64,000 bases of DNA from Gemmatimonadota bacterium. GTDB taxonomy: Bacteria; JAAXHH01. The first letter of the stretch is position 1. Each line of letters starts with the position of its first letter. The notes under the pieces were generated by a model. The model searched no databases, was not told the DNA's origin, and was given only the letters and a program-made list of their open reading frames with translations. The stretch is from contig JAPPBT010000083.1 of assembly GCA_026702745.1 (NCBI GenBank), positions 62,001 through 126,000 on the forward strand, in the 5' to 3' direction. Positions 2,228-57,078 of the stretch are shown here, in pieces. Both the position numbers and the translations under genes were made by a program.

Positions 2228-4808
2228 CAACGCCGGCGGGGCAGCATCCGCGCCCGGCGGTGCGGCATCCGCGCCCGGCGGTGCGGCATCCGCGCCCGGC
2301 AGGACAGCATCCGCTCCCGCCAGGGAAACCGCTGCGGAAGACGTGGGATACCTGCTTCACGTCTTCCATCGGGCGGAGCACGGCCGGGACGTGATCTGCG
2401 GGGTCGGGAAACTAAAGAACGGCCAGACCTTCCAGTTCATGGACGACCGGGTCTCGCCCACGCTCTACGTCCGGGTCTCGGAACAACCGGAGGCCGACGC
2501 CCTGATCCGTTCCGAAGGGGTTTCTGCCCGGGTGGTGCCAGCGGAATACACCACGATGGACGGCGAGCCCGTTGCGGGCATCGAGTTTGAGCGCGTGCGC
2601 GACCAGCGCAACCTGGTCAAAAGCCTGGAGGCCCAGCAGACCCGGACCTACGAAGGCGATATCCCCTTCGGCAGGCAATACCTGATCGGACGAGGACTTC
2701 GGGGCGGGGTGAGGATCAGCGGCGCCTGGACCGCTGGCGACCGGGTCGACCGGGTCTATGCCAACCCCGAACTAAAACCGGAGTACTGGGAACCCGTCTT
2801 CAGCGTGCTGGCCCTGGATATCGAAACGGATCCCGATGCGACCACCATCTATGCCGTGGGCCTGGTCCTGTCGGAATCAGGCGGCGGCATCGACTCCGAA
2901 GAAATACACATGGTCGGTGAGCCGGCCGCAGGGGACCCCCCGCACCTGGTCTGCTGGCCCGACGAGGCGTCGATGCTGCGCGCCCTGTCGTCCCGCATGC
3001 TCGAAATGGATCCCGACCTGATTACGGGATGGAACCTGGTCGACTTCGACCTGCAAGTCCTGCAGCGACGCTTCAGGGACCTGAACGTGCCGTTTCAACT
3101 CGGGCGGACCGATGACACGTCCTGGTACCGGTCCGGGGAGGTCTGGGGCGGCAGCACCATGGTGATCCACGGCCGGCAGATCCTGGACGCCCTGCACCTG
3201 CTTCGCGGCACGTTGCAGCGGTTCGAGGACTACCGCCTGGACACCGTGGCCAACGCCATCCTGGGCAGGGGCAAGCTGCTGGAGGAGGATGGGGGAAGTT
3301 CCCGGGCGGAAAAGATCACGGAGGTCTATCGCGAGGACCGGGCGACCTTCTGCGCCTACTGTCTCGAGGACGCGAGGCTGGTACTCGACATCCTGGAGGC
3401 GGAAGGACTGATCAACCTGACCCTGCGCAGAGGCCTGCTGACAGGCCTGCCGCTGGAAAGGGCGTGGGTCAGCGTTGCCGCCTTCGACAACATCTACATC
3501 AACGCCCTGCACCAACGGGGCATGGTGGCGCCGACGACCGGCGTGGACCGCACCCCGGGCGCCGGCGCGCCAGGCGGATTGATCATACCCGCGAAAGCCG
3601 GGCTCTACCGAAATGTCTTCGTCTTCGACTTCAAAAGCCTTTACCCGTCCATCATCCGCACCTTCAACATCGATCCACTGGCACATATCGAGGCCCAGGA
3701 TTCGGCATCGGACGAGACGGGCGCGGTTCCCGGCCGCGTGTCCGACGGCGACCGGAAAGGGGAATTCCTCGAGGCCCCCAACGGCGGGCGGTTTTCCCGC
3801 ACCCCGGGCATTCTGCCTTCCATGCTGGAACAGTTTTTCAAGCGCCGGGAGGAGGCCAGGACCACCGGGGACGAACTTGCCTCCTTTACCTACAAGATCG
3901 TCATGAATTCCTTCTACGGCGTCCTGGCATCCGCTTCCTGCCGCTTCGCCGCACCTCAACTGGCCGGTGCGATCACGGAATTCGGACACTACATCCTGAA
4001 GTGGTGCCGGGATGAGTTGGAGAAAGACGGTTACAAAGTGCTTTACGGGGACACGGATTCGGTGTTCGTTGATCTCGACCCGGTGGAAAGGCCGGAATCG
4101 GGTCAGGCCATGGATATGGGTCGGAAAGTATGCGACCGGATCAATGCCCGGTTAGCCGCGCACGTGAGGGAACGGTACGGCGTGGCGTCTTTCCTCGAAC
4201 TGGAACTCGAGAAGTGCTACCACCGGTTCCTGCTGCCTTCCATGCGGAGTGACGTCGAGCGCGGCAGGGCCAAGGGTTACGCGGGCCTGCGTCGCGGGAC
4301 CGATGGCGACCGCGTGGAAATCGTGGGCATGGAAGCCGTGCGGCGGGACTGGACCGACCTGGCTCACCGGCTGCAGGGCGTGCTGCTCGACCGGGTGTTT
4401 CACGACGTGCCCGGCGCCGAGATCGAAGAAGAAATCTACCACTGGGTCCAGGAGGTCCGCACCGGTCGCCGGGACGAATTGCTCGTCTACCGGAAGAACT
4501 TGCGCAAGCCCGTCGAATCCTATACCCGTTCGGTGCCTCCTCACGTCAAGGCAGCCCGGCTCATGGAAAACCCGACGGGTGTCATCCGGTACGTGATCAC
4601 GCTCGACGGGCCCCAACCGGAGGGCCGGATCACGGCCCCCATAGACTACGGGCACTACATCGAGAAACAGATCCGGCCCATCGTTACGACCGTCGCCCAC
4701 GCGTACGAACTGGATGTGGAGGCCGCCCTGTCCGGCCGGCTCAGTCTCTTCGGAAACGCCCTGAACGCCCCGCAGTTCCAGTCGGGATCGTCTGAGGTCC
4801 CGCCCTAG
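2205..4808 (+). CDS. polB: DNA polymerase II (family B DNA polymerase)
   Basis: This 867-residue family B polymerase has a 3'-5' exonuclease domain: ExoI ALDIETD about residue 203, Exo[11 protein letters not shown] about 275, Exo[14 protein letters not shown] about 385. The polymerase motifs are all present: motif [11 protein letters not shown] about 476, motif [10 protein letters not shown] about 564, and motif [11 protein letters not shown] about 614 with both catalytic Asp. E. coli Pol II, a damage-inducible translesion and replication-restart polymerase, has about 783 residues. The extra length here includes a low-complexity N-terminus (residues 11-38) made of four GGAASAP-type heptads. 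The start overlaps the upstream UvrA-like gene by 23 bases, so translational coupling is likely. No inactivating change is seen. Confidence 0.95.
2235..2318 (+). repeat. In-frame 21-bp tandem repeat at the polB N-terminus
   Basis: Four consecutive 21-base units encode Gly-Gly-Ala-Ala-Ser-Ala-Pro heptads. Units two and three are identical and the outer two have diverged slightly. The array lies wholly inside the coding sequence just after the start codon, ahead of the first conserved polymerase block, so it probably forms a flexible tail. Confidence 0.9.
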
Positions 4809-4833
4809 GCCGAATTCATGGAAAGGATGGATC

Positions 4834-5427
4834 GTGCAACGGTATAAATCGGTTGAAGATTACCTGGATGGCCACGTGGAATGGCGGCCCCTGCTGGAGA
4901 GACTATGCAACATCATGAACGCATGCGAGGTCGAAGAGACCGTCAAGTGGGGTCAGCCCTGCTATACCCATGCAGGCAAGAACGTGGTGGGCATCGGGGC
5001 GTTCAAGGAGTTCGTGAGCGTCTGGTTTTTCCAGGGCGCGTTGCTGCGCGACGAACACGGCGTCCTGGTCAATGCGCAGGAAGGCAGGACCCGGGCTATG
5101 CGGCAGTGGCGGTTTCAGGCGGTCGAAGAGATCGACGAACCGCTGTTGCGCGCCTACGTGGACGAGTCCATTGAGAACCAGCGGCTGGGCAAGGAGATCA
5201 AGGCGGAAAGGAAGAAGCCGGTGGAGGTTCCGGATGAACTGGCCGGCGCACTGGCGGATGACCGCGACGCCGGCGAGCGGTTCAGCTCGCTTACGCCGGG
5301 GAAGCAGCGCGAGTACACCGAATACATCGCCGAGGCCAAGCGGACGGAAACCAGGACAAAGCGCCTAGAGAAGATCCTGCCCATGATCCGGTCCGGCCAG
5401 GGGCTCAATGATAAATACAAGCGTTAG
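4834..5427 (+). CDS. YdeI/DUF1801-family protein
   Basis: This 197-residue protein has an N-terminal DUF1801-like domain (EETVKWGQPCYTH, then a KEFVSVWFF strand, residues about 30-70) and a C-terminal YdeI/OmdA-type segment (FSSLTPGKQREYTEYIAEAK, about residues 150-170) that is characteristic of the YdeI family. The biochemical role of this family is poorly defined. The GTG start is chosen because a GGAAAGG ribosome-binding site lies just upstream. It stands between polB and a VOC-domain gene with short gaps on the same strand. No catalytic residues can be assigned. Confidence 0.75.
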   Translation: MQRYKSVEDYLDGHVEWRPLLERLCNIMNACEVEETVKWGQPCYTHAGKNVVGIGAFKEFVSVWFFQGALLRDEHGVLVNAQEGRTRAMRQWRFQAVEEIDEPLLRAYVDESIENQRLGKEIKAERKKPVEVPDELAGALADDRDAGERFSSLTPGKQREYTEYIAEAKRTETRTKRLEKILPMIRSGQGLNDKYKR

Positions 5428-5505
5428 CATGGACCACAAAGTAGCATGAACCGTAAATCAGGATGAACCGCAGCAACACGTACCACAACCAGAGAGGAGC
5501 GCGCA

Positions 5506-5859
5506 ATGGCGAATCCCGTCATGCATTTCGAGATCGGTTGCAAGAACAGAGAAGAATCCCAGGCCTTCTACGCCGGCCTGTTCGGTTGGAACATGGAGTC
5601 CCATGAACATGCTTCCATGATCGACACCGGGGGAGATGAAGGGATCAACGGACACATTTCCGCTCTCGGTCACGAGCCGCACAACTACACGCTGGTCTAT
5701 GTGCAGGTCGACGATTTGGACGCCTACGTCGCAAAGGCCGAGGAACTGGGCGGAGCGTCCATCGTACCTCCAACCGAAGTCCCGGGCATGGGCCACTTCG
5801 CGTGGATTGCGGATAACGAGGGTACGTTCGTCGGGTTGTGGAAGCCCCTGGGATCGTAA
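5506..5859 (+). CDS. VOC-family (glyoxalase-fold) protein
   Basis: A single-domain vicinal oxygen chelate protein of 117 residues. It starts MHFEIGCKNREES and contains the typical LFGW, V-D-DLDAYVAKAEELGG and G-HFAWIADNEGTFVGLW blocks, the last carrying the family's usual Glu in its final strand. VOC proteins are metal-dependent lyases, dioxygenases or resistance proteins, and the sequence alone does not give the substrate. An AGAGAGGAG ribosome-binding site precedes the ATG. The 3' end overlaps the start of the glycosylase gene. Confidence 0.85.
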   Translation: MANPVMHFEIGCKNREESQAFYAGLFGWNMESHEHASMIDTGGDEGINGHISALGHEPHNYTLVYVQVDDLDAYVAKAEELGGASIVPPTEVPGMGHFAWIADNEGTFVGLWKPLGS

Positions 5860-34966: not shown

Positions 34967-35938
34967 TGGGCCAAAGTCGGTGCCTTCCTGAGCGCATGAT
35001 ATTATGGTTAGGAGTTTAAGTTGTTATAATATAATTCTTAAAGTAGTTACCTTGCTTGCTCACTAGTTGCTCTGTCGTTGCCCAGGAAAGCGCGGTTATC
35101 CTGATGCCAAAGCCGATTACGCCTGTAGTGGATTAGCGTGGGATGGATGTATCGTTCACGGGCTAACTGACAGACAGGTTTGCCTGTATCGGCTTCCTGT
35201 AGAACCTAAAGCATGAATCGCGAGAAAACTGACGACGGCTCGAAAACTGACGACGGCTCGAAAACTGACGACGGCTCAATGTACTGGCGTGCCTCGTAGA
35301 TCAGAAAGAAACCAAACTCTGAGTCCCGCTCAAGGGTGCGGTACAGGAACGAAACTTCACGAAGTCTATGTATATTCTAGACTACGTTGCAAATTCCATA
35401 TTCACCTAACGGTAAGCCTGTTCATTCTGAGATCAATCAGAAGTAAACAGTTTAATCTGATATATTTGCAATCAGTTAGCAATTGAGAGGCGGGCCTTGC
35501 GTTCCGGTTCGCAGCTCGTTGGCATGTAATTTGCGAAATGTGGATGTTGTACGCAATGGTGTAGTCCCCTTCTAGTACAAATTGCAATGAAGAAGGCTTC
35601 TCGGTACATTGGGTGAGTGTATCTTCGATAATGAACGTGCTCTTTATTGCACGGACCCTTATGATGAAGTAAGTATCTACCACGCAAGGCAAGAAAAAGC
35701 GGGCATCTACCCGTTTGTCGAATGAAGTCGAACGCATGTTCAACACGGGATCTGGATATGCGTCTTTCGCTGACCTGGGTGTATATTTTGATCGGTTTAG
35801 ACCGTTGGGCGAAGTGCTTAAAACGCAGTAGCGGCTCGTAGCGGTGCGCGGTAGGGCCCGCAAGGAAGACTACAGCAAATTGGCCGGGATCTTGGAAAGC
35901 GACCAGGTTCGTGTTGGACCTCGTCTGACCTGGTCATA
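34967..35938. other. Island left border: non-coding, decayed sequence
   Basis: Nearly 1 kb without a convincing gene. Base composition drops in GC here compared with the preceding genes. The open frames on both strands are short, lack ribosome-binding sites and show no family features. A TTATAATATAATTC stretch near 35021 could serve as a promoter. From about 35690 the plus strand has gene-like fragments broken by stops, leading into the transposase relic that follows. Confidence 0.5.
35224..35277. repeat. 18-bp intergenic tandem repeat, three copies
   Basis: Three identical consecutive units of GAAAACTGACGACGGCTC in the non-coding border region. No gene or known regulatory site is associated. 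Confidence 0.95.
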
Positions 35939-40755: not shown

Positions 40756-41079
40756 ATGAAGAAATGGTTTCAGATTGGAAAAACCTCCTACATGGATGCA
40801 GGCTGTAAACTACTACCTCGTAAGTTCGCTAGAATCGTTAAGACGGAAGACGGAGCTATCGCTTTATCCATTAATACATTTCGGTATTACTATTTGAACG
40901 AGATGGCTTACGACATCTGGCAATTGTTATTGCAGGAAGACAGTCCAATCAAGGCATATGAAAGACTGTTGACCGAATACGATGACATTCCCCAAGAAGA
41001 CATGTACAACGATTTCAGTGGAGTGTGTCAGTTCTTTTTAGATAACAAGCTATGGTATATCAGGCGTTCTTGGAGTTAA
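40756..41079 (+). CDS. PqqD-like RiPP precursor recognition element (RRE) protein
   Basis: A 107-residue PqqD-fold protein. It shows the winged-helix pattern ALSINTFRYYYLNEMAYDIW (a strand followed by the first helix), then EDSPIKAYERLLTEYDD and a final helix with FFLDNKLWY. PqqD-type proteins bind leader peptides and present them to modifying enzymes. Because it directly precedes two radical SAM/SPASM genes, it probably serves those. A second, different RRE protein lies at 47967 beside the precursors. A GGAG site precedes the ATG. Codon use is AT-rich like the rest of the island. Confidence 0.82.
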   Translation: MKKWFQIGKTSYMDAGCKLLPRKFARIVKTEDGAIALSINTFRYYYLNEMAYDIWQLLLQEDSPIKAYERLLTEYDDIPQEDMYNDFSGVCQFFLDNKLWYIRRSWS

Positions 41080-41105
41080 CTACAAAATTCCGTCAGGAGT
41101 AACTA

Positions 41106-42170
41106 GTGGAAAACTCTCCGTGTCATGATCTGTTCGTGGAACTTACTTCAAAATGCAATTTGAGATGTATCCATTGTTACAACTCATCCGGAATTGAACG
41201 CCATAAACTGAAGTTGGATCTGATAAAGAAAACCCTGGCCGACTCACAAGAACTGGGCACAAATGTGGTTCAGTTCACTGGCGGTGAAACAATGTTATAT
41301 CAAGGACTTATTGAGCTTCTGGAGCTCGCAAACGAATTAGGTTATGCCGAAACTTGGATTATAACAAATGGAACGGTTTTCAAGAAAGAAATCCTAGAAA
41401 AGTGCAGAGATCTTTCGGTTAAGTTACAAATAAGTCTTGATGGCGGCACTGCGGAAACAAACGACGAGCTACGAGGTAAGGGTGTGTTTAATCGGGTATT
41501 GAACTTCCTTGAATTGCTTAACGAGTTTGACCTGAACAGATCTGCACAGATTCGTTGCACGGTTTCTCGTAACAATCTGGACTCGACTGAGCATCTGATT
41601 CAGGTTGGTCTACGCTACGATATTCCTAAGATTCATTTTTCGTGGGCGAAATACGAAGGTCGTGCAAGAGACGATAACACATATTCGGATATTCAATTTG
41701 CACCAACTGAAGTTCAACACGCCATCAATCATACGGCTGAATTAATGACAAAATACCAGAACGAAATCGAAGTATCACGGCTTCGTGCACATAGGAACCA
41801 ATGTCCGATTTACAGGGATGCCGTCCCCTGTGGTAGCTTGAGGATTGCCTATGACGGTCGAGTGTTTCCATGTCAGGGATTGGTTAAGGAAGGACATGAA
41901 CTGGGTGATCTAAACCATGAGGACCTTCCTGATATAGTTACAGATTCTCGCCTTAAAGCCCTAAGCAATAAACTGAACGCTGAATTTCAAGCGTGCCGGC
42001 GTTGCGCTTTTAAGAGTATTTGCCCAGGTGGTTGCCCGTCACTTGGCGAATACATTATCGAAGAACAGCCGGAGAACTTCGACGCATTTTGCACGGCACG
42101 AAGGATATCGTTCCGAGATGATCTTTTCAGGTCTCGTGGACTGCCTGAACCCCAGATGGCCGTTCAATAA
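41106..42170 (+). CDS. Radical SAM/SPASM peptide-modifying enzyme 1
   Basis: This 354-residue radical SAM enzyme has the 4Fe-4S/SAM motif CNLRCIHC at Cys 17, 21 and 24 and a GGE motif (FTGGETMLY, about residue 58). The C-terminal SPASM domain has Cys at about 233, 242 and 256 and the cluster CRRCAFKSICPGGC (about 297-310), which should bind auxiliary clusters. Such enzymes use a 5'-deoxyadenosyl radical to install thioether, carbon-carbon or epimerised linkages in RiPPs or to mature quinoproteins. The GTG start follows a CAGGAG site. It lies between an RRE gene and a second radical SAM gene; its substrate is inferred to be the lasso-type precursors at 47018 and 47580. Confidence 0.9.
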   Translation: MENSPCHDLFVELTSKCNLRCIHCYNSSGIERHKLKLDLIKKTLADSQELGTNVVQFTGGETMLYQGLIELLELANELGYAETWIITNGTVFKKEILEKCRDLSVKLQISLDGGTAETNDELRGKGVFNRVLNFLELLNEFDLNRSAQIRCTVSRNNLDSTEHLIQVGLRYDIPKIHFSWAKYEGRARDDNTYSDIQFAPTEVQHAINHTAELMTKYQNEIEVSRLRAHRNQCPIYRDAVPCGSLRIAYDGRVFPCQGLVKEGHELGDLNHEDLPDIVTDSRLKALSNKLNAEFQACRRCAFKSICPGGCPSLGEYIIEEQPENFDAFCTARRISFRDDLFRSRGLPEPQMAVQ

Positions 42171-42229
42171 AACTCCACCGCACCGTGTAGGGTAGCGGAC
42201 AACGCCAAGTAGATAAGAGGGTATTTATC

Positions 42230-43513
42230 ATGACCGAACTGTTAGCAATAGAGACCGCGTGGTCTCCACCAGATAACATCATTACCGCAGCAAGAGAAAG
42301 AATGCTTCAAGAGAAATACAAAACTGAAGGAGAAGAGATTCGAGGTTTAGTCATAGTAATGAAACTCACCGGCGCATGTAACATCAAATGTTCGTATTGC
42401 TATGCAACACCCGAACTTATCGGTGGGAACACGTCTACTGATCTTGCCATAAACACCATCGCCCATGCCGCATATAGTCATTCCGGCCCGATCGTCATCG
42501 ACCTACACGGCGGCGAGCCACTATTGATGTTCGACCGAATCAAGACGATTGTAGAGGATACCGAACAACGACCGTATGCTTGGCGGGTGAGATTCAACAT
42601 ACAAACAAATGCATTGTTACTTAATCGGCATATAGCGAGATACCTCCATACACACAACATTAGCATCGGCATCAGTCTTGACGGTCGTGGAGATGTTAAC
42701 GATATCCTACGCAAAGATCACGACGGGAAGGGTACATTTGACCGTGCTATGAAAGCCATAGAAATGTTGCGTGAGGAAAACATCCCCTTTGGTGTTATCT
42801 CAATCTTAACCAAGGTGAATCATGATAAGGTTATTGAAATGTTCGAGTTTTACAAGGAACTGAATCTAACCGTAGTCATGTGTAATGCACTTTCCCTTTC
42901 AGGTAGAGGGAACGGCAAGATACATCTACTGCCGAGCCCTATTGAGTACTTTGAATCGAGCAAACGCATTCTTGATTGGATGATTGAGCACAATTCAACC
43001 AATGAGACACCTATGTATGAATGGGACCTGTCTTTAATGGTACAACGAGTTGCGGGAATACTCAATCCCGCCGAAACAGTATGTCATAACTCTCCATGCG
43101 GAATTGGAAAGGAAACCATCTCTGTAACACCTGATGGTAGTGTCTATCCATGCGACTGGCTTGTTGGGCTAAACGAATACAATATGGGGAACATCAAAGA
43201 GCAATCGTTAAACGACATAATGAGGAACAACGGGGTTCTAGATCAATTAAGGATCCCTCATACCGAACGTGTTTTGGAATGCCGTGAGTGTGAATTGAAT
43301 ACGATCTGCAACGGAGGCTGTCTGGCCAGAAACATACTGGCCTATGGGCGAGAAGGCATTACTAGAGTTGCCGGAATGTGTGCGTATTACATGCAGATTT
43401 TGCCATACATAAAATCACTATTGGAGCAAGGTGTTGAGCTAAGTCACATTTCGTATCCCAAGGACGGTATCCAACCACCGTTCGATTCAGAAGATGGCTG
43501 TTTTGTAGACTAA
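42230..43513 (+). CDS. Radical SAM/SPASM peptide-modifying enzyme 2
   Basis: A 427-residue protein with radical SAM motif CNIKCSYC (Cys 50, 54, 57), LHGGEPLLMF (about residue 84) and a SPASM domain that includes CHNSPCGIG, SVYPCDWL and CRECELNTICNGGC (about residues 285-365). The HGGEPL form and overall length resemble the anaerobic sulfatase-maturase-like and cyclophane-forming groups. It differs greatly in sequence from enzyme 1, so the two probably perform different or successive reactions. The tail ends in an acidic region with a Cys (DSEDGCFVD). Eleven bases separate it from the kinase-like gene. Confidence 0.9.
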   Translation: MTELLAIETAWSPPDNIITAARERMLQEKYKTEGEEIRGLVIVMKLTGACNIKCSYCYATPELIGGNTSTDLAINTIAHAAYSHSGPIVIDLHGGEPLLMFDRIKTIVEDTEQRPYAWRVRFNIQTNALLLNRHIARYLHTHNISIGISLDGRGDVNDILRKDHDGKGTFDRAMKAIEMLREENIPFGVISILTKVNHDKVIEMFEFYKELNLTVVMCNALSLSGRGNGKIHLLPSPIEYFESSKRILDWMIEHNSTNETPMYEWDLSLMVQRVAGILNPAETVCHNSPCGIGKETISVTPDGSVYPCDWLVGLNEYNMGNIKEQSLNDIMRNNGVLDQLRIPHTERVLECRECELNTICNGGCLARNILAYGREGITRVAGMCAYYMQILPYIKSLLEQGVELSHISYPKDGIQPPFDSEDGCFVD

Positions 43514-43524
43514 GGAACAATCAA

Positions 43525-44529
43525 ATGCGATTCTACCGTGCGTTCGGGAATTCAATCGCGAGTTCCATACCACTACCGTTAATAGAAACACAACAGCGCA
43601 CTTCCCCTGATTTAGTCTTTACGGTGGAGTACGATCAAATTGATTTCAGTGACACTGATTTCACGGGATTCGAGAGGAAGAACTCAGCCGGTCGATCTTT
43701 CGGTGATCGGTCACCCGTGGCGTTTTTTTATGATTCGCGACGAGTTGTCCTCTATCCGGGAGAAGCATGCTATACAATCACGTTAGGCCAACCAGTTAGT
43801 ATCCACTGTAGGGTATCATCCGGAACCGTACTCGACATAGTGGCGGATACATTCGTCGATGATATAGTGAGTTTGGTTACTCTAATGCAAGGCGGAATCG
43901 CACTACATGCCGGATGTGTCGAAGTAAATGGGTTTAGGTTTTGCATCTTTGGAGACTCTGGATTTGGAAAAAGCACGACAGTTACTTCACTAACCAGGCT
44001 TGGTTGTGATTTTCTAAGTGATGATGTAACCACCGGGCGCATCGTAAACGACCAATTCGAGGTGCATTCGAGTTTTCCTTATGTCAGGCTTTGGGATTCA
44101 TCTGCCGACCGAGTGATCCCCAAGTATGAAGGAATATCAATTGCAGGTAAACCAGGAAAGAAAAGGTATCGTGTAACTGACTGGACTTCGGAAAAGCAGA
44201 CCTGGCGAAGACTAGATTTGGCCTACTTAATGAGACCATTCCCGTCACTGGAAGCAGAATCTGTTACGAATGGTTCAAAGATGGGCATGTATATAACGTT
44301 AATCAAATCCATCATGATGGGCTTCGCTCTAACTGCTAGGGAATGGGAAATAGTACAACAGACATGTTACCATATTTCAAGCTGGACAAGGTTTCATTTG
44401 GTCTCTTACGCTATTAAGATTGAGCGTGCAGAGAAGGTAGCTGAGTTAATCATGCGTCATGTAGCCCAAACTCAAACAGAATCGAACAACATGAGAGGTA
44501 GCCATGAGCTTTGTTTGCGGTCTGTTTGA
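43525..44529 (+). CDS. HPr-kinase-like protein (lasso-cluster kinase type)
   Basis: A 334-residue protein related to HPr kinase C-terminal domains. The P-loop is GDSGFGKST (residues 143-151), preceded by the GIALHAGCVEVNG block and followed by LGCDFLSDDVT, which carries the paired Asp. Such kinases occur in lasso peptide clusters of Firmicutes and related bacteria, where the characterised ones phosphorylate the C-terminal Ser of the precursor. The precursors here end in Asn, so the target must be another residue or the role different. It overlaps the cyclase gene by 26 bases. Confidence 0.82.
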   Translation: MRFYRAFGNSIASSIPLPLIETQQRTSPDLVFTVEYDQIDFSDTDFTGFERKNSAGRSFGDRSPVAFFYDSRRVVLYPGEACYTITLGQPVSIHCRVSSGTVLDIVADTFVDDIVSLVTLMQGGIALHAGCVEVNGFRFCIFGDSGFGKSTTVTSLTRLGCDFLSDDVTTGRIVNDQFEVHSSFPYVRLWDSSADRVIPKYEGISIAGKPGKKRYRVTDWTSEKQTWRRLDLAYLMRPFPSLEAESVTNGSKMGMYITLIKSIMMGFALTAREWEIVQQTCYHISSWTRFHLVSYAIKIERAEKVAELIMRHVAQTQTESNNMRGSHELCLRSV

Positions 44530-46399
44530 ACGAAATGGTAGACGGGCTGATGAGTGCGATTTAGATAAAATGATCGAGGCTGGACTTACACTAAATGAGG
44601 AGAGCATCAGCCACCTCCTGTCTCCACCTTGCGTGAAGCAATTGGACAATGCCATTGCAGGTGTCACAACTTGGCCACACAGTCGTGGAACGCAACTCGG
44701 CAGCCCGGTTCACCTTGAAGGTAATCTACTTACTTGGACCGGTCGACTGGATAACCGAGACGAGTTGGTCGGAGAGCTGAACGAAAGGGGCACCTCTCTC
44801 ACTCAAACCGTCAAGGACGATGAAATCGTCGCTTGGGGAGTTTACTTGTTCGGCGGTGAGGTTTATGTCAAGAAAATGATCGGTGATTATGCTTTTGCTG
44901 TCGTAGAAAGCAATAAAAACGAAGTCTTTTTAGCAAGGTCACCATTCGGCGTAAGAGAGTTGTACTATCTTGTTTCGGCATCGCGTACAGCATGGGCATC
45001 AAATCTAGCTCAGATTATACCGATACTAACAGACACGATCGACGAAAAACACTTAAAGGTTTATATAGCAGAATACCTTTGCTGTACGGCCAAAGGTCGT
45101 ATGGCGCATACCCCGTATAGGAACGTGTACAAGTTACTTCCTGGCAGGTTTCTTCGGATTTCAACTGGCGGACTTACATCCGGTGAGATATGGTCACCTG
45201 ACGAAACAAAAGCAGAACGTTATTCTACGAATGAAGAATATGAGGAACGCTTTCGTCAACTCTTGTCGACTGCGATTCGTAGAAGATTAGCCTCTTGTGG
45301 AAGCAACGGGATTCAGATCAGTCTGAGTGGTGGCTTGGACTCATCAACTGTTGCTAGTATGATTGGCCATATGCGTGAAAATGGTGAGTCGCTGCCAAGA
45401 ATCCAGCTTTTTACAAACGTTTATCCAGGGCAAGGAGATGAAAGCGAGTACGCACGTACTGTAGCCAAACAAACTACATTTCCCTTAGAGATCGCGAGAT
45501 CGTTCGAAAAAAACTGGTTGCTTAAAGGCTGTGATTCTCTACAGAGGCTACCAGAGCCTCAGGAGTCAATTCTTGAGAACCGAATTGGACTTGAAGAAGA
45601 ACTCAAACAAGGCTCACTGACGCCCTATATGTCCGGTTTAGGAGGTGATCAAATCCTAACCGGTAATCTTATCTATCTAGCAGGCTACCTTAAGAAATGG
45701 AAGATGGCCACGTTTTTTAATCAAATACGTCAACTTTCTCAAAAATCAAAACAATCTGTAGTCAGTTTAGCTGTTCAATATGGCTTAAAGCCTGTCTTGG
45801 ATCGTAGTCAGTTTCAGTTCAGAAGGCGTGGTATAGCTTTTAGTATAACAACAGAAACCTTTCGAAAACAGTACTCACTTAAAGAGCGGCTCGAATCTCG
45901 CTATCTACCTGTTGCTTACTCGGATCCTTCTGCCCAGGACGACTACGAAAGTCTTCTCTCATTGCACCAATGGTCTTGCCCTGGATTTAGCATTTTGGAT
46001 ATGAGAACACCGTACTTGGATACTGATTTGGTTGAGTTTTGTCTGACACTTCCAGGTAAACTACGAAATGATGGATTGCATGACCGAGTAATCATGCGGC
46101 GGGCAATGAAGGACATACTGCCCCCAAAAATTCTGCACAGAAGATCACAGGGAAGTACAGAAGACAGTATCACCTTTGGATTAAACAAAGAATGGCATCG
46201 AATCGAATCACGTTTAGGGAATTTCTATCTGGCACAACTAGATATTATCTCTAACGAGAACTTGGAAATCCTGCTAAGACGCGCAAGGGCTGGAGCATTG
46301 AGATATGATGTGTTATCCGGAATACAGATTCTTACGCTAGAGTTCTGGTTAGAAACAATACTGGGTCATGAATCAAATCCTATATTTCACAGACCTTGA
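44504..46399 (+). CDS. Asparagine synthetase-like lasso peptide cyclase (C protein)
   Basis: This 631-residue protein has an N-terminal class II glutaminase-like domain (SFVCGLFERNG; LTWTGRLDNRDELVGEL; DYAFAVV). The synthetase domain follows with the PPi loop SLSGGLDSSTVASM (about residue 273) and LGGDQILTGN (about 378). In lasso biosynthesis this enzyme adenylates the Asp/Glu side chain at core position 7-9 and closes the macrolactam with the N-terminal amine. Here the expected acceptor is Glu 8 of both cores. It overlaps the kinase gene and is followed by the B2 peptidase gene. Confidence 0.9.
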   Translation: MSFVCGLFERNGRRADECDLDKMIEAGLTLNEESISHLLSPPCVKQLDNAIAGVTTWPHSRGTQLGSPVHLEGNLLTWTGRLDNRDELVGELNERGTSLTQTVKDDEIVAWGVYLFGGEVYVKKMIGDYAFAVVESNKNEVFLARSPFGVRELYYLVSASRTAWASNLAQIIPILTDTIDEKHLKVYIAEYLCCTAKGRMAHTPYRNVYKLLPGRFLRISTGGLTSGEIWSPDETKAERYSTNEEYEERFRQLLSTAIRRRLASCGSNGIQISLSGGLDSSTVASMIGHMRENGESLPRIQLFTNVYPGQGDESEYARTVAKQTTFPLEIARSFEKNWLLKGCDSLQRLPEPQESILENRIGLEEELKQGSLTPYMSGLGGDQILTGNLIYLAGYLKKWKMATFFNQIRQLSQKSKQSVVSLAVQYGLKPVLDRSQFQFRRRGIAFSITTETFRKQYSLKERLESRYLPVAYSDPSAQDDYESLLSLHQWSCPGFSILDMRTPYLDTDLVEFCLTLPGKLRNDGLHDRVIMRRAMKDILPPKILHRRSQGSTEDSITFGLNKEWHRIESRLGNFYLAQLDIISNENLEILLRRARAGALRYDVLSGIQILTLEFWLETILGHESNPIFHRP

Positions 46400-46452: not shown

Positions 46453-46827
46453 ATGAGATTCGAGGCGATTATCCTCATAGGTCTAGTGAGGGCCGTAATT
46501 CGATTTTCAGGTTTTTGGCTGATTTACACCGCCATCGGCCTAGTCTGGAGAGTGAACCGGTTACACGCCAATAAACAAAGAGAAATCGACATGCGCACTG
46601 TACAGCAAGTATTCGCAACAATTGATGCGGTGCTACAAACGGAAGTGTTCCCTTCTCAGTGCCTTTATCGTTCATGCGTTGCGCATATTATGCTGTTCTA
46701 TCGAGGAATACCCTCACGGTTCAGGATAGGTGTAAAATCCAACCCGTTTTCAGCACATGCATGGTTGGAATGGAATGAAACACCGCTCATGGAATCAGAA
46801 TCTTGTGGTTTGCATGTTATCCTGTAA
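46453..46827 (+). CDS. Transglutaminase-like lasso leader peptidase (B2 protein)
   Basis: A 124-residue member of the McjB C-terminal / lasso B2 family, a papain-like protease that cuts the leader off before the Gly of the core. The catalytic Cys is Cys 70 in PSQCLYRSCVAH and the His is His 102 in FSAHAWLEW. An N-terminal hydrophobic segment (FSGFWLIYTAIGLVW) is typical of B2 proteins. It is slightly short at the C-terminus, so the third catalytic residue is not obvious. The 3' 211 bases of this gene are repeated exactly at 47176-47387. Downstream come the two precursor genes. Confidence 0.87.
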   Translation: MRFEAIILIGLVRAVIRFSGFWLIYTAIGLVWRVNRLHANKQREIDMRTVQQVFATIDAVLQTEVFPSQCLYRSCVAHIMLFYRGIPSRFRIGVKSNPFSAHAWLEWNETPLMESESCGLHVIL

Positions 46828-47173
46828 CGCCCTACGGGAACTTACCGTCTGACAAACTACACATATTCACATTTACCAAGGAGGTGATGTCCATAGCAAA
46901 TTAGATATTTTAGTAGTTAGTTTGAGTCGATTTTGTCTGGGACTTCTGAGTTACGATCTTGATTCAAGAATAAACTCAGTGTCTTCGTTCAACTTCCCAA
47001 GATTGGGGGGAAAGTAAATGGCTAGCGAGAAGAAACAGTACTCGAAACCGGTGGTACTTGATCTCGGTGACGCCGCTGAACTTACAGCTGGGTTCAGTTC
47101 TGGCGGTTCGGAAACTATCGGAGTTTGTTTGTTCGGCTATCTTTATTGGGAGAACTCGGTTGAGCAACGGTTT
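46616..47173. repeat. Tandem duplication, unit 1 (B2 3' end, spacer, precursor A1)
   Basis: The first copy of a direct duplication of about 560 bp. It runs from codon 55 of the B2 gene through the intergenic spacer to the antepenultimate codons of the first precursor. It is identical to unit 2 over its first 358 bases (46616-46973); all differences lie in the last 200 bases. Confidence 0.97.
46878..46888 (+). promoter_or_regulatory. Perfect Shine-Dalgarno sequence without a matching gene, copy 1
   Basis: AAGGAGGTGAT is a full complement to the 3' end of bacterial 16S rRNA. It lies about 130 bases before the A1 start. The only nearby frame is a five-codon one (ATG at 46887, ending TAG). It could be the initiation site of a tiny leader peptide or a remnant of a lost gene start. 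The second copy is at 47438. Confidence 0.7.
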
Positions 47174-47185
47174 AACAACAATTGA
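47018..47185 (+). CDS. Lasso-type precursor peptide A1
   Basis: A 55-codon gene with a GGGGGG ribosome-binding stretch seven bases before the ATG. The leader (residues 1-24) contains Tyr 8, Pro 11, Gly 17 and Thr 23 at exactly the spacing of the lasso leader motif Y-x2-P-x-L-x3-G-x5-T-x-G, with Val in place of Leu at residue 13. The predicted core starts at Gly 25 (GFSSGGSE, then TIGVCLFGYLYW, then ENSVEQRFNNN). Gly 1 and Glu 8 of the core allow an eight-residue macrolactam ring with a 23-residue tail containing bulky aromatic plugs and a single Cys. The C-terminal NNN is created by the duplication junction. It follows the B2 gene. Confidence 0.85.
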   Translation: MASEKKQYSKPVVLDLGDAAELTAGFSSGGSETIGVCLFGYLYWENSVEQRFNNN

Positions 47186-47387
47186 TGCGGTGCTACAAAC
47201 GGAAGTGTTCCCTTCTCAGTGCCTTTATCGTTCATGCGTTGCGCATATTATGCTGTTCTATCGAGGAATACCCTCACGGTTCAGGATAGGTGTAAAATCC
47301 AACCCGTTTTCAGCACATGCATGGTTGGAATGGAATGAAACACCGCTCATGGAATCAGAATCTTGTGGTTTGCATGTTATCCTGTAA
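47176..47387 (+). pseudogene. Duplicated 3' fragment of the B2 leader peptidase gene
   Basis: An exact copy of the last 70 codons of the B2 gene, from TIDAVLQTEV to the stop, retaining the catalytic Cys and His codons but without its own start or ribosome-binding site. The frame is open upstream only through out-of-frame precursor sequence (from about 47058), so translation as a functional B2 is unlikely. It is a passenger of the tandem duplication. Confidence 0.88.
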
Positions 47388-47437
47388 CGCCCTACGGGAA
47401 CTTACCGTCTGACAAACTACACATATTCACATTTACC

Positions 47438-47448
47438 AAGGAGGTGAT
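47438..47448 (+). promoter_or_regulatory. Perfect Shine-Dalgarno sequence without a matching gene, copy 2
   Basis: This is the duplicated copy of the site at 46878, about 130 bases before the A2 start, again followed only by a five-codon frame. Confidence 0.7.
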
Positions 47449-47579
47449 GTCCATAGCAAATTAGATATTTTAGTAGTTAGTTTGAGTCGATTTTGTCTGG
47501 GACTTCTGAGTTACGATCTTGATTCAAGAATAAGCTCAGTGTCTTCGTTCAACTTCCCAAGATTAGAGGGGGAAAGTAA

Positions 47580-47744
47580 ATGGCTAGCGAGAAGAAACAG
47601 TACTCGAAACCGGTGGTACTCGATCTTGGTGACGCCGCTGAACTTACAGCTGGGTACAAATCTGGCGGTTCGGAAACTTTCGGAGTCTGTTTGTACGGCT
47701 TTATTTATTGGGAGAACTCGGTTGAGCAACGGTTTGGTAACTGA
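47580..47744 (+). CDS. Lasso-type precursor peptide A2
   Basis: A 54-codon paralogue of A1. The leader is identical in protein sequence (two synonymous changes). The core reads GYKSGGSE, TFGVCLYGFIYW, then ENSVEQRFGN. It differs from A1 at core positions 2, 3, 10, 15, 17 and 18 and at the end, while Gly 1, the SGGSE ring half, Cys 13 and YWENSVEQRF are unchanged. The ribosome-binding site GAGGGGG is closer to consensus than that of A1, so A2 may be the better expressed. It is followed by a strong hairpin at 47851 and then the RRE gene. Confidence 0.87.
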   Translation: MASEKKQYSKPVVLDLGDAAELTAGYKSGGSETFGVCLYGFIYWENSVEQRFGN

Positions 47745-47850
47745 ACGAGACTATGTCAAGTGTTTATAAGCGTTCTGTCCACACAAACGTCTCCCGCGAG
47801 TAGGGAATCTTTATAGGTGCCAGGACAATTCGTTTGTGAACAGGTTGCCT

Positions 47851-47889
47851 GTTTTCCGGGCCAGGATTTCAACATTCTGCCCGGAAAAC
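47851..47889 (+). terminator. Strong hairpin between the precursors and the downstream operon genes
   Basis: GTTTTCCGGGC and GCCCGGAAAAC form a perfect 11-bp stem around a 17-base loop. No long T-run follows directly, so it may be a partial terminator or an mRNA-stabilising processing hairpin. It would let the precursors be made in excess over the B1 and transporter genes, a common arrangement in RiPP operons. Confidence 0.65.
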
Positions 47890-47966
47890 ACCGTTTATTC
47901 ACGTCTCTGACGTCAGTTAAGTTACCTCCTATGCCTGCCTTCTCAAACAAGTAGGGGATAGTTCCG

Positions 47967-48275
47967 ATGAAAGCAAATCAACTGCTGGATAAACCGGCAG
48001 ATGTCATTGCCCATAGATTTGAAGATGGCATGGTTGTTTATGTAGGCGACAATGATCGTTTTCTCGGCTTAGACAGTATGGGTGCGGTTATCTGGGATTA
48101 TCTGTGCTCACACGGTAGTGTAAACACTGTTGTAGAGACAATGCTTCTCGAATACGACATCGACGAACATACACTACGTGAAGACGTTGAATCGTTATGT
48201 CGACAAATGATTGAGTGTGGTGCGCTAAAACCCAAGCACGACGGAGAGAAAGGTAAAAAAGAAATTGGAATTTAG
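47967..48275 (+). CDS. PqqD-like RRE protein (lasso B1 protein)
   Basis: A 102-residue PqqD-fold protein with the blocks FEDGMVVYVGDNDRFLGLDSMGAVIWDYL, here described as a strand pair followed by a helix, then SVNTVVETMLLEYDID and a last helix ESLCRQMIECGAL. In lasso clusters with split B proteins, B1 binds the leader through its conserved Tyr and Pro and delivers it to B2. Adjacent B2, precursor and C genes support this role. Its C-terminus overlaps the exporter gene by 11 bases. It is clearly different from the RRE protein at 40756. Confidence 0.85.
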   Translation: MKANQLLDKPADVIAHRFEDGMVVYVGDNDRFLGLDSMGAVIWDYLCSHGSVNTVVETMLLEYDIDEHTLREDVESLCRQMIECGALKPKHDGEKGKKEIGI

Positions 48276-50094
48276 AGAATTCAAGAGACTACCCAGGTGG
48301 TTTAAAGAAGGATACAGAGCCAATCCGGTGGTGTTCTTTGTTTTCACTTTTGCTACCTGCATTCAAGGACCACTTTTAGCCATTGCCGTGCTTTGGTCTG
48401 GTAAATTGGTCGATCAAGTACCTGGTTTCATCGAAGGAAATGTAACGAATGTACAGGTACTGTTAACGTCATTGGTTATACTAGGCATCGGACTCTTAGT
48501 TACTTCCGGTGTTTTTGTACAGATGATAGCAAAAGGTCGTTTACAAGACAGCATTGCGTACAAAATCAAACGTCAACTCCTGCAAGCATCACTCGAAACG
48601 GACTATCTGGCATTCCTTAAATCAGAAAAGCAAAACCGTTTGGATCGCATCTTAAGAGGGTTTGATATGGATCTGACGTTATTGCTTATGGATTCAGTTT
48701 CTTGCCTGGGAACGACATGGACAATCGTTTCATATCTTGGCATCATCGGATTCACATCTAGCTGGTATGTAGCAATTGCTGGGCTACTTTTTTTTGTGCC
48801 GATAACTTTCATAAACCTGAAGTTAGTACAAAAGGAGTTCAAATTCGACCAGAAGGTTTCTTCCGACGATAGACGTATAAAATACACTGAATACGTCCTT
48901 ACTGGATCGAACACGGCAAAAGAGATCAAGTTGTTTGGCTTGGGAGGGTATTTATCAAGAATTTGGGAGGCTAGATACAGAAAACTGAAATCAGGTAGAT
49001 CTCGAATTGAAATACACCAACATATTTGGAAGGCCAGCACCCAGATTATGGCTTTGGCTATATCAGCTGGTTTGTTGTTTCTGGTTTTAGGTCGAGGCGG
49101 TGTTTCACCCGGAGAGTTCCTGGTCATCCTAACAGCATTGACATTCATTCAAAGTGGTTTGGTCGAAATTAGCAAGACAACGGCTACATTGGTTCTACGC
49201 TTGGAAAGACTGGAAGAGATTGATACTTATTTACGGGAAAAAGACCCATTAGAGTACTACCAAATCAACGAGCAAAAAGTACTACCTGTGAACTCCAACC
49301 ACACGAGGCCTGCCATCGTGATTGAAAATGTATCTTTCTCTTACGATACGGGAAAAAACTGGGCACTTAAGAATATAGATCTGACAATAAACCCTGGTAA
49401 GAAGATCGCTCTTGTCGGAATGAATGGTGCGGGTAAATCTACTATTATCCATCTTCTACTGGGGCTTTATCGACCATTGACCGGCAGAATTCTGATCAAT
49501 GGCTATCAACCGTATGGTATGGATTCTAAAACCCGTCACAAAATGATCTCTGCAGTATTTCAACAGTTTGGCAGATATCATGGCTTAACATTGTGGGAGA
49601 ACATCTCATTAAGTTCGTTCGATCCTGCCTTCAGCCCAGGTGACCTTCTAGTAGGCGGTTCTGAGTTGTTCCCGACTCTTGAAGACAAAATGGGTTTAGT
49701 TGTGGGTAAGGAATTCGATGGAACTGAACTGTCAGGAGGGGAGTGGCAACGAATTGCATTAGCCCGTGCCATGATGTTGAATACCCCTATCGTCATTCTT
49801 GATGAACCTACTGCGGCTTTGGATCCGTTGGGCGAAGCAGGTTTGTTTAACGAATTTATGGGTTTACTTCACAAAAAGACAGTTATCGTTGTTACACACC
49901 GTTTAGGATCAATAAAAGAGGCTGATGAAATCATTGTACTCAAGGACGGTCAAGTTGAGGAAATAGGTAATCATGACGAACTGATAAATCGTCAAGGTCA
50001 CTATTGGCAAATGTTTGAGGCACAAGCGGAATGGTACAGGGAACCCGCTGCAGAAATACACTCCACTTCACTTCAAGAGTCCAATCAGAACTGA
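48265..50094 (+). CDS. ABC exporter half-transporter 1 (lasso D-type)
   Basis: A 609-residue fused membrane and ATPase protein. The first about 320 residues contain five to six membrane helices. The ATPase has Walker A GMNGAGKST (about residue 385), signature LSGGEWQRIALARA (about 489) and Walker B VILDEPTAALD. There is no N-terminal C39 peptidase domain, in keeping with leader removal by B2. Start is TTG overlapping the B1 gene. It probably pairs with half-transporter 2 as a heterodimer for peptide export and self-immunity. Confidence 0.9.
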   Translation: MEFREFKRLPRWFKEGYRANPVVFFVFTFATCIQGPLLAIAVLWSGKLVDQVPGFIEGNVTNVQVLLTSLVILGIGLLVTSGVFVQMIAKGRLQDSIAYKIKRQLLQASLETDYLAFLKSEKQNRLDRILRGFDMDLTLLLMDSVSCLGTTWTIVSYLGIIGFTSSWYVAIAGLLFFVPITFINLKLVQKEFKFDQKVSSDDRRIKYTEYVLTGSNTAKEIKLFGLGGYLSRIWEARYRKLKSGRSRIEIHQHIWKASTQIMALAISAGLLFLVLGRGGVSPGEFLVILTALTFIQSGLVEISKTTATLVLRLERLEEIDTYLREKDPLEYYQINEQKVLPVNSNHTRPAIVIENVSFSYDTGKNWALKNIDLTINPGKKIALVGMNGAGKSTIIHLLLGLYRPLTGRILINGYQPYGMDSKTRHKMISAVFQQFGRYHGLTLWENISLSSFDPAFSPGDLLVGGSELFPTLEDKMGLVVGKEFDGTELSGGEWQRIALARAMMLNTPIVILDEPTAALDPLGEAGLFNEFMGLLHKKTVIVVTHRLGSIKEADEIIVLKDGQVEEIGNHDELINRQGHYWQMFEAQAEWYREPAAEIHSTSLQESNQN

Positions 50095-50392: not shown

Positions 50393-52201
50393 GTGGATGT
50401 TCGAGGGTCAACTGGTTCACCCGGAGCTAATAGCGTGTTAAAAGAGTTGATTGAGAAGTCATATCTGTTGCGAATGATGTTACTACTTACGTCGCTTGAC
50501 AGATTTCGGGTCATTCCGCTATTGGGGCTTGCCGTTCTTCGTGGAGTACTACCGACAATTGATCTCTGGATAATCGCTCAACTTGTAGACGCTCTGGTCT
50601 CGTGGGAAGGAAATCTTCTGTCAACCTTTGGATTCTGGCTAAGTACCCTGATTGGATTGCGTATCGTTGGAGAAGTAATCTCCCTGGGGATGTCGTATAT
50701 AGGTGTGAAAATACGAGATCGTGTAGATATACACCTTAAACGTACGTTGTTTGCTCACATCAACGAAATCGGATTGCTGGAAAGGGAATCATCCAATTAC
50801 GCGGATCGTGTATCTCGTGCGAATTCAGCGACGAATCCAACAAGAATAACCATATTGTTGGAGAGCGTTCCGAAAACCATATCTGAATTTGCCGGAATGA
50901 TCTCATTGATGGTACTATTGTTTAGTATTTTTTGGCTTATTCCTGTTTTAAACATTGTTCTTCTTAGTCTCTGCATTTTCGCACAGGCCAAAGCCAGTGT
51001 CGTGTTCTTTTCGCAGTTTTATAGTCAGACTCAAGAACAACGTCTACTAGAGACCTACGAGCATGCCTTGTTCAGTAAAGATCAAGCTGGTGAGGTTAGG
51101 TTTTTCGGTTTTGGAAAGTGGCTCTTGGCAAAATGGGAGAGGTTATTCGTCACGTTTTCTAAACAACGCAGGAAAACAGTCAATAAACAGGCAAGAACCG
51201 GTAGGATCTCAGAGTGGGTTATGATCTCATTCCTTCCTACTACATCCGCTTTAGTTTTAATTTTTGGAGTTCAGGAAGTCACCGCAGGAAGTGTTATCAT
51301 CGCACTTCAGTCTACGCAACATCTGTCTTCAAAACTCTACTTTATTTTGAATCAATTTCAGTCTTTTGTTGAATCCCGGCAAATGCTTAAAGAGTTCTTT
51401 TCATTCCTGGACGAAGTACCACAGGATGGGAATTCAGTTGAACCCCTTGTAGCAAAAGGGTTGAGTATTCAATGTTCTAATATGGGATTTACATATCCAA
51501 ATCAGAAAGAACCTGTCCTTGAGGATGTAAACTTGAATATCGCTCCAGGGGAGCATATTGCCATAGTGGGTGAGAATGGTTCTGGTAAATCTACACTTGT
51601 TAAATTACTAATGGGATTATACTTACCTACCGAGGGTCAAGTTACACTGTCGTCCAACAACAAAACAGGAACCTGTGCTAACAACAATTACCGAATATCC
51701 GCTTTATTTCAGGATTACGTCAAGTACAATTACAAATTGCGTGAGAATATCGGCTTTGGCGATTATCGATTCATAGATGATCAGCAACGACTAAGCGCGG
51801 CAGCTAGAAAATCTGAGTGCCTTGAGATTGTGAACGAAGCTGGACTCGACATACAGATTGGTAGAGAATTCGAAGGCATCGAATTCTCAGAAGGCGAATG
51901 GCAACGGATAGCCCTCTCGCGGACACTATTCAGGGAAGATTGCGGTCTCATTACCCTGGATGAACCCACCGCCGCTCTTGATGCCATTAGTGAAGCTAAG
52001 ATATTGAGAGGATTTCTTCAAATAGACCGTGAAAGAACCTGTCTGTTTGTTTCTCATCGGCTTGCTTCTATCCGTCTTGCTGATCGCATTTTGGTATTAA
52101 AGGAAGGACGGATTGTCGAGCAAGGTTCACATCAGGAACTTATGGAAAATTGTGGAGAATACAGTCGTCTGTTTAATACTCAAGTTAGTGCGTATTCTTG
52201 A
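50393..52201 (+). CDS. ABC exporter half-transporter 2 with degenerate signature motif
   Basis: A 602-residue membrane-ATPase fusion. It has Walker A GENGSGKST (about residue 395), Walker B GLITLDEPTAALD and an H-loop FVSHRLAS. The ABC signature reads FSEGEWQRIALSR, with Glu replacing the first Gly of LSGGE. Such degenerate signatures are usual in one half of heterodimeric exporters, supporting pairing with half-transporter 1. It lacks a peptidase domain. The GTG start is 16 bases after the small membrane protein. This is the last gene of the contiguous operon. Confidence 0.9.
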   Translation: MDVRGSTGSPGANSVLKELIEKSYLLRMMLLLTSLDRFRVIPLLGLAVLRGVLPTIDLWIIAQLVDALVSWEGNLLSTFGFWLSTLIGLRIVGEVISLGMSYIGVKIRDRVDIHLKRTLFAHINEIGLLERESSNYADRVSRANSATNPTRITILLESVPKTISEFAGMISLMVLLFSIFWLIPVLNIVLLSLCIFAQAKASVVFFSQFYSQTQEQRLLETYEHALFSKDQAGEVRFFGFGKWLLAKWERLFVTFSKQRRKTVNKQARTGRISEWVMISFLPTTSALVLIFGVQEVTAGSVIIALQSTQHLSSKLYFILNQFQSFVESRQMLKEFFSFLDEVPQDGNSVEPLVAKGLSIQCSNMGFTYPNQKEPVLEDVNLNIAPGEHIAIVGENGSGKSTLVKLLMGLYLPTEGQVTLSSNNKTGTCANNNYRISALFQDYVKYNYKLRENIGFGDYRFIDDQQRLSAAARKSECLEIVNEAGLDIQIGREFEGIEFSEGEWQRIALSRTLFREDCGLITLDEPTAALDAISEAKILRGFLQIDRERTCLFVSHRLASIRLADRILVLKEGRIVEQGSHQELMENCGEYSRLFNTQVSAYS

Positions 52202-55137: not shown

Positions 55138-57078
55138 ATGCATACGTTAAAACCTGAAGACAATGCGCTCCTACTTCTGGCTAGACCCAGTTTAGACGAT
55201 GATCACGTTGATCTTATCGAAAGGTACATTGGAAGTACTTTTAACTGGGGTAACTTTTTGAAACAGGCAATGCACCAGAAAACGATTCCATTTTGTCGTT
55301 ATCATCTGTTGAATCCGAATTTTCCATTTAAGCAGGCAGTACCATTATCAATTAAACAGCAGTTGGTGATTGGGCATGAGTCCATAATACAAATTAACAC
55401 GCTGATGTTAAAAGAGTTACGGCGTATCTTGGAAGTAATGGATAAGAATAAAATCAATATACTCTCATTAAAAGGACCCGTACTTGGCCATCAGTTATAC
55501 CAGGACATTAGTTTAAAAACAGCGAGTGATATAGATTTACTGGCCCACCCGGAACAGGTGAATGAGACTATTGCTGCCCTGTATGATGCAGACTACTCTC
55601 AGTCTCTTTACGACTTAGTAAGAAAAGATCAGTTCCAACCTCCCCAAACCTACACATTTCACTGGCATTACAGAGACCCTAACAATCATCTCTTCCCCTT
55701 TACACGGACACCCGAAAGGTTCGGACCTGTACATGAGGTAGTCCCTCAATTGTTGTCAGAGTACGAATCTTACTTAATGTCCAATCCTCTCGCCAAAGAG
55801 TATGAACTAACTCATTCTCAAAGATCTCTTATATGGAATATGTGTCTGAGAAGACTCTATAAAACCCCTTACCTGACTGTTTTGGATCTACATTATCATA
55901 TCTGTTATCCCTCAGAACCTTTAGTCGTAGACTTGAAAGATTGGTTCGATACAGCGACTACATGCCAGGTTTCTGGGGACTGCGCGATTCCAGTTTTCAA
56001 TATCGTGAATCAGCTTATATACCTTTCAAGGCATCTGTTTTTTGAAGCAACGTTCTACAGACGTATACTCAAGAACGAGGAAGTTAAGTTAGACAAGTTT
56101 CAAGATGTGTTCCAGATAATCAAACTGCACGATTCTCCTGCCTTTCGTCGTGCATTAGTTAAAAGGGCTAATGAACTTAGAGCTATAGAACCTGTTTACT
56201 ATACCCTGTTTTATCTGGACAGATTATATGATTCTTCGTCGATTAACGATATATTGGGCAGGTTTGAGCGACCGCGTCGTAGTTTACCAGATGAGTTCTA
56301 CGGAGAGCACAATGGTACAACAACTTTCTTCTGGGATACACCTTTCCTAGATAGGCTTTTTAACAAAAATTCTGCAAAGGCAGCCACCGAAGTTGTTAAA
56401 AAGGCAACCTCCTCGGAACCAGGCATCCGTTGTTACAAAATACAATCGTCAATGCTCGATGATTTGGGTTTTCTTGACCCTGATGTTTCCGATCCGCAGA
56501 TACGAATACCAGAAAGTTTCAACAAATCGGGGCATAGATCGGAAACCCACCTTCAGGTTGGAGAAATTCCAAAATCAAATTCTGATCTTAGTGCAAAGTG
56601 CTGGATAGGATGGAACGAGTCTTACTTTTACTTGGCGGTGCATGTAATTGATGACTTTGTGATTCCTGGCCAGTCTTGCATGCGTGGGTTTCTGTACGAT
56701 CAAGATGCAGTACGTATCTACTTCCAAGGACAAAGTGGTATCCAATCTCTGTTCATAGTACTAAAGCCTGACCATCAGGACGGTGCAGTATGTTTAACCC
56801 AAGAGATAATACACGAAGTACTGTTTGCCTCCAAAGTCACAGAGAGTTCTAGAGTGTTAGCTAGCAAGTCGAGTAACGGATATCAATTTAGTGCTCGTAT
56901 TCCCTGGGCAGCTGTTGATTTAGATCCGAGAGTTGGAGATACCATCTATTTCGACATCGAATTGTATGACTGTGATAACCGACTTGATGGAGTTAAAACT
57001 GTCCTGGCTTGGTCTGGTCGTGAGCGGCGAAATGAATATGACACTTCGGTACTTGGCTCGATCATTCTTTCTGAATAG
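55138..57078 (+). CDS. Nucleotidyltransferase-family protein fused to a CBM9-like domain
   Basis: A 646-residue two-domain protein. The N-terminal part (about 1-390) matches the NTP_transf_5-type uncharacterised nucleotidyltransferase family, with ILSLKGPVLGHQLYQD and the metal-binding pair in ASDIDLLAHP (about residue 131). Members accompany lasso clusters, where one is reported to add sugars to phosphorylated peptide. The C-terminal part (about 420-646) has the pattern of a family 9 carbohydrate-binding or DOMON-like domain (CWIGWNESYFYLAVHVIDD; YQFSARIPWAAVDLDP). AT-rich like the lasso operon, but separated from it by the FtsX permease. Possible promoter TTGTAC/TATAGG about 55 bases upstream. 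Confidence 0.8.
   Translation: MHTLKPEDNALLLLARPSLDDDHVDLIERYIGSTFNWGNFLKQAMHQKTIPFCRYHLLNPNFPFKQAVPLSIKQQLVIGHESIIQINTLMLKELRRILEVMDKNKINILSLKGPVLGHQLYQDISLKTASDIDLLAHPEQVNETIAALYDADYSQSLYDLVRKDQFQPPQTYTFHWHYRDPNNHLFPFTRTPERFGPVHEVVPQLLSEYESYLMSNPLAKEYELTHSQRSLIWNMCLRRLYKTPYLTVLDLHYHICYPSEPLVVDLKDWFDTATTCQVSGDCAIPVFNIVNQLIYLSRHLFFEATFYRRILKNEEVKLDKFQDVFQIIKLHDSPAFRRALVKRANELRAIEPVYYTLFYLDRLYDSSSINDILGRFERPRRSLPDEFYGEHNGTTTFFWDTPFLDRLFNKNSAKAATEVVKKATSSEPGIRCYKIQSSMLDDLGFLDPDVSDPQIRIPESFNKSGHRSETHLQVGEIPKSNSDLSAKCWIGWNESYFYLAVHVIDDFVIPGQSCMRGFLYDQDAVRIYFQGQSGIQSLFIVLKPDHQDGAVCLTQEIIHEVLFASKVTESSRVLASKSSNGYQFSARIPWAAVDLDPRVGDTIYFDIELYDCDNRLDGVKTVLAWSGRERRNEYDTSVLGSIILSE

Follow-up and report, generated by a model that had tools for sequence, protein, structure and literature searches.

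Gene content of the lasso-peptide operon

The stretch of DNA analysed here (the window), 64,000 nucleotides of a Gemmatimonadota genome, contains a lasso-peptide operon to which twin precursor genes, A1 and A2, belong. The gene order is C, B2, A1, B2 fragment, A2, B1, exporter D, and second exporter, all on the plus strand. The genes C, B2, and B1 were each identified by profile matches above cut-off: the lasso macrolactam synthetase C (44504-46399), which has an asparagine-synthetase fold, by PF00733 (92.6 bits); the lasso leader protease B2, a full-length ORF of 124 aa (46453-46827), by NF033537 (58.6 bits, cut-off 33) and PF13471 (68.9 bits), with profile positions 6-119 of 132 matched; and the PqqD-type recognition element B1 (47967-48275) by PF05402 (42.7 bits, cut-off 23.4). 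The lasso-specific models for C, NF033535 (214.5 bits, cut-off 525) and NF033561, matched below their cut-offs. Between A1 and A2 lies a 3' fragment of B2 (47176-47387), a non-functional copy that lacks a B2 start of its own, is identical to 46616-46827, and matches NF033537 at profile positions 68-121 only. The ABC exporter D (48265-50094; PF00005, 102.8 bits) and the second ABC exporter (50393-52201; PF00005, 92.3 bits) follow B1.

The B2 reading frame ends at a stop at 46827, at profile position 119 of 132, while another frame is open to 46904 (46803-46904). A frameshift at the B2 C-terminus was considered and rejected, as reading through into the joined frame brought no gain in score over the ORF itself with either profile (57.4 versus 58.6 bits and 66.9 versus 68.9 bits).

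Preceding C is a gene for an HprK-like protein (43525-44529, plus strand), a possible tailoring kinase whose match to PF07475 (24.1 bits) falls below the cut-off of 33.3. An extra PqqD gene (40756-41079) and two radical SAM/SPASM genes (41106-42170 and 42230-43513), also on the plus strand, form one gene run with the lasso genes, and the best NCBIfam matches of the radical SAM/SPASM genes were StsB and DynA, below cut-off. A search for a separate precursor serving these PqqD and radical SAM genes (40756-43513) found none. Passages of a review of lasso post-translational modification mention radical SAM for other peptide classes only (PMC9266682).

The gap between A2 and B1 (47745-47966) is predicted to fold into an RNA structure more stable than its shuffled counterparts (z -3.6, with 1 of 200 shuffles as good), and a long GC-rich hairpin lies near 47850-47895; it is possibly a partial terminator or a processing site that would favour precursor transcripts.

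The genomic island and its relatives

The operon lies within a low-GC island (34970-58659, no strand assigned), the operon stretch having a GC content of 42-55% and the surrounding genome region one of 58-66%. The same genomic place was fetched from seven congeners (L030-L036). In six of them (L030-L035), the sequences flanking the island (window coordinates 34.97 and 58.66 kb) are only 0.37-0.49 kb apart, and the 23.7-kb block is therefore absent. The island is species-specific. At the empty site of L030 there is a short gene that, by eye, we take to be inorganic-pyrophosphatase-like. The seventh and more distant congener, L036, holds relatives of both ABC exporters at the site (53% and 62% identity), and no lasso biosynthetic genes were detected there; alongside the exporter relatives (1540-5620) is an ORF that, again by eye, is presumably pyrophosphatase-like. 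The L036 exporter locus may be a remnant, or it may belong to another peptide system. The island of the window also encodes a fusion of a PF14907 nucleotidyltransferase with a CBM9 domain (55138-57078); genes of the PF14907 type are found with some lasso clusters.

Wider searches retrieved few relatives of the operon. At E 1e-30, no cyclase turned up in any of 190 other genomes, lasso B2 was present in only 1 of 15 other genomes of the phylum, and neither the cyclase nor B2 had a match in viral contigs. For exporter D, the set genome_contigs yielded only ABC relatives at 26-33% identity. The precursors had no match in genome_contigs and none in plasmids, and a search of 191 genomes returned, outside their own genome, only weak matches (E 0.006-0.08). 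A genome from another family of the same order (G015) has two lasso B2 loci (L013 and L015) with PqqD neighbours, which at L015 are accompanied by a cyclase-like ORF and by a candidate precursor (1119-1280, minus strand).

Two intact precursor genes

A1 (47018-47185) encodes a lasso precursor of 55 aa with its core starting at Gly25, and A2 (47580-47744) one of 54 aa; both lie on the plus strand, both reading frames are intact, and both products match the leader model NF033521 (lasso_leader_L3) above its cut-off of 19, at 23.1 and 21.6 bits. In a motif scan, both copies showed YSKP, an instance of [YW]xxP, and Thr23, at position -2, preceding Ala24 and Gly25, and cleavage is predicted before Gly25, after Thr-Ala. 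In lasso cores, Gly1 and an acidic residue at position 7-9 form the ring. Both cores here have Gly25 and Glu32, from which an eight-residue ring, Gly1-Glu8, is predicted. The [YW]xxP motif with Thr at position -2 is described for lasso precursor leaders in passages of two papers (PMC13381572; PMC10368454). When the island was searched for other precursors with [YW]xxP, A1 and A2 were the only good candidates; the remaining ORFs with the motif (nested frames ending at 36770 and a minus-strand ORF at 35472-35687) look unrelated by eye and were set aside.

A 560-bp tandem repeat with an identical flank and a diverged tract

A1 and A2 each stand at the end of a 560-bp direct repeat, composed of the 3' part of B2, a spacer, and a precursor gene, that occurs twice in tandem at 46616-47735 with a unit-to-unit spacing of 560. 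Unit 1 (46616-47175) holds the 3' part of the full-length B2, the spacer, and A1, with 47174-47175 falling outside both matched blocks, and unit 2 (47176-47735) holds the B2 fragment, its spacer, and A2; both are on the plus strand. These are the only two copies in the genome assembly. The first 358 bases of the units match exactly (46616-46973 and 47176-47533). The rest, comprising the end of the spacer, the ribosome-binding region, and the precursor gene (46974-47173 against 47534-47735), differs by 12 substitutions and one 2-base indel in 202 columns. When 12 substitutions were scattered uniformly across 560 columns, at least 358 consecutive columns stayed identical with a frequency of 6.5e-5, making the identical run unlikely by chance.

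An earlier note on this DNA had described 358 identical bases, ten differences between the A segments with three of them synonymous, and changes to six codons confined to the core, and exact comparison bore out every one of these counts. The A copies (47018-47173) differ at 10 positions, three of them silent (codons 14 and 16 in the leader and codon 36 in the core) and seven altering six codons: 26 (F/Y), 27 (S/K), 34 (I/F), 39 (F/Y), 41 (Y/F), and 42 (L/I). All six lie in the core, which begins at residue 25. Five of the six replacements exchange hydrophobic or aromatic residues like for like; half are F/Y swaps, with codons 39 and 41 exchanged in opposite directions, and one is L/I. The note had overlooked a substitution at 46974 (A/G), the 2-base indel and single G/A change directly upstream of the A start codon (around 47003-47005), and a difference at the junction codon 53, where copy 1 has AAC and copy 2 has GGT. 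The C-termini accordingly read RFNNN in one copy and RFGN in the other, A1 having one additional Asn codon and a different stop; its TGA is B2-derived sequence, out of frame.

As the repeat exceeds the common short-read length and the assembly consists of 102 contigs, we asked whether the assembler had joined the A alleles of two strains through the 358-bp repeat, since a short-read assembly could misphase the A alleles of a strain mixture. We regard such an artefact as improbable. The junction of A1 to B2 is a specific sequence that requires real reads, and since A1 leads into this junction and A2 into B1, their order would be fixed in the assembly graph if those reads are real. Real junction reads would mean a true duplication in at least one genome, leaving in doubt only the phasing of the A alleles or the presence of extra, collapsed A1 units.

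Silent changes and the case for selection on the cores

The repeat is a mosaic. Silent or untranslated substitutions number five in approximately 83 silent sites of the diverged tract and zero in the 358 bases of the flank (Fisher 2.1e-4), and a conservative count, which treats only one B2-coding site in four as silent, gives five in approximately 83 against zero in 199 (Fisher 2.0e-3). A purely noncoding comparison is borderline (two in 44 nt against zero in 146 nt, p 0.053). The numbers are small, with five silent substitutions in all, and the changes at 46974 and 47003-47005 lie near the ribosome-binding site and may be non-neutral. Since silent and untranslated changes cluster in the tract and are absent from the flank, the history of the tract appears to be older than that of the flank.

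The confinement of amino-acid changes to the core could instead be read as the result of strong diversifying selection that acted on the cores alone after a recent duplication, an option that the earlier note had also raised. In its favour, the chance of all six changed codons falling within core codons is 0.0185, and nonsynonymous changes number zero in the leader and seven in the core (Fisher 0.015). Selection on the cores fails as the sole cause, however, because the silent and untranslated changes are likewise limited to the A tract and avoid the 358-base flank. In addition, the core pN of 0.110 does not differ significantly from the whole-gene pS of 0.081 (ratio approximately 1.4, p 0.74), and the replacements include the three F/Y swaps and the L/I exchange. 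A constrained leader and a permissive core fit the contrast between leader and core and suffice to account for it, and we consider diversifying selection as the only cause very unlikely.

All seven nonsynonymous differences have an A in one of the copies, as would be expected if a diversity-generating retroelement had mutated adenines in the core. No reverse transcriptase (PF00078) was found in the genome assembly, from which a few per cent of the genome is missing, nor was a template repeat: there is no third template-like copy, and the next best DNA matches extend over at most 20 bases. The same tract also carries silent C/T changes. A retroelement is thus an extremely unlikely source of the differences.

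Origin of the twin precursors

The reading that we prefer, with a probability of roughly 0.6, is a recent tandem duplication, joined at a microhomology, in which recombination has brought two alleles of A into the copies. The lasso-peptide operon would have undergone a very recent 560-bp tandem duplication in which the 3' end of the precursor gene was joined into the middle of B2 at a microhomology of 3-4 bases (AAC or CAAC). At the breakpoint, copy 1 ends in GGTTTAACAAC followed directly by AATTGATG, copy 2 ends in GGTTTGGTAACTGA, and B2 reads GCAACAATTGATG, and the shared 3-4 bases are the likely joining point. The duplication is probably young, since the B2 fragment, free to decay, is without any change. 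The event would have left the operon with two precursor cassettes, the new one equipped with a separate spacer and ribosome-binding site and preceded by a dead B2 fragment.

The two A genes would then be alleles that had diverged before they were brought together, and the AAC/GGT difference at codon 53 and the upstream indel look like allelic differences. Two routes could have led to this arrangement: the duplication may have arisen by unequal recombination between two chromosomes that differed in their A allele, or a related strain may later have supplied a short recombination tract (approximately 170-200 bp or more) that overwrote one of the copies. The leader read by B1 and B2 is retained in both, and a single machinery would therefore yield two related lasso peptides.

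The principal competitor is an older duplication in which gene conversion between the copies keeps the 358-bp flank identical but does not reach the A genes, which diverge. Direct repeats this close are able to convert, and the process would yield the same mosaic of identical flank and diverged A genes, silent changes included. Such conversion would, however, have to span the whole flank to the left end of the repeat and yet always halt near the A start, and exchange between direct repeats so close together would often delete a unit. We found no literature on gene conversion with hypervariable precursor peptides. Because it takes more steps than a single allelic exchange, we judge gene conversion the unlikely explanation of the two and prefer the simpler joining of alleles. 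Of the three origins proposed in the earlier note, the recombination of two already different precursors is thus the best supported, given that the silent and untranslated changes cluster with the amino-acid changes, and gene conversion, which predicts the same pattern, ranks below it.

Comparison with known lasso systems

Lasso clusters can carry multiple precursors with divergent cores and identical leader motifs, according to passages of one study (PMC13381572), and caulosegnins I-III are an example of a multi-precursor lasso cluster, as indicated by a title in the reference list of another (PMC8498205). The locus described here shares with these clusters several A genes with a common leader and different cores. 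It differs from them in its fresh 560-bp tandem unit, its retained B2 fragment, its 100% identical flank, and cores that differ by only six residues (seven with codon 53). Lasso clusters with more than one kind of precursor are already known; the present one retains its breakpoint in well-preserved form.

With its split B1 and B2, its HprK-like gene, and a gene for a PF14907 nucleotidyltransferase in the vicinity, the present locus resembles clusters of the paeninodin/pseudomycoidin type, for which passages of PMC9266682 describe the same features. In contrast to paeninodin-like (phosphorylated) lasso peptides, for which passages of PMC13381572 give a WxxP leader motif, the leader here is of the YxxP type in both copies, neither core has a C-terminal Ser, the kinase match is below cut-off, and two radical SAM genes are added.

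Implications for lasso core diversity

It is conceivable, though we hold it to be a long shot, that the operon uses a self-contained cassette of spacer, ribosome-binding site, and precursor that is duplicated and swapped between strains into a library of lasso cores, with products differing mainly by Phe or Tyr at positions modified by the two radical SAM enzymes. If true, the cluster would yield lasso peptides that radical SAM enzymes tailor at sites shifted from one product to the other. More directly, a second lasso precursor gene has apparently been caught soon after it arose, with traces of its origin still in the sequence, namely the breakpoint, the dead B2 fragment, and the captured stop codon. 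This suggests the union of existing alleles, as opposed to mutation after duplication, as a possible source of core diversity.
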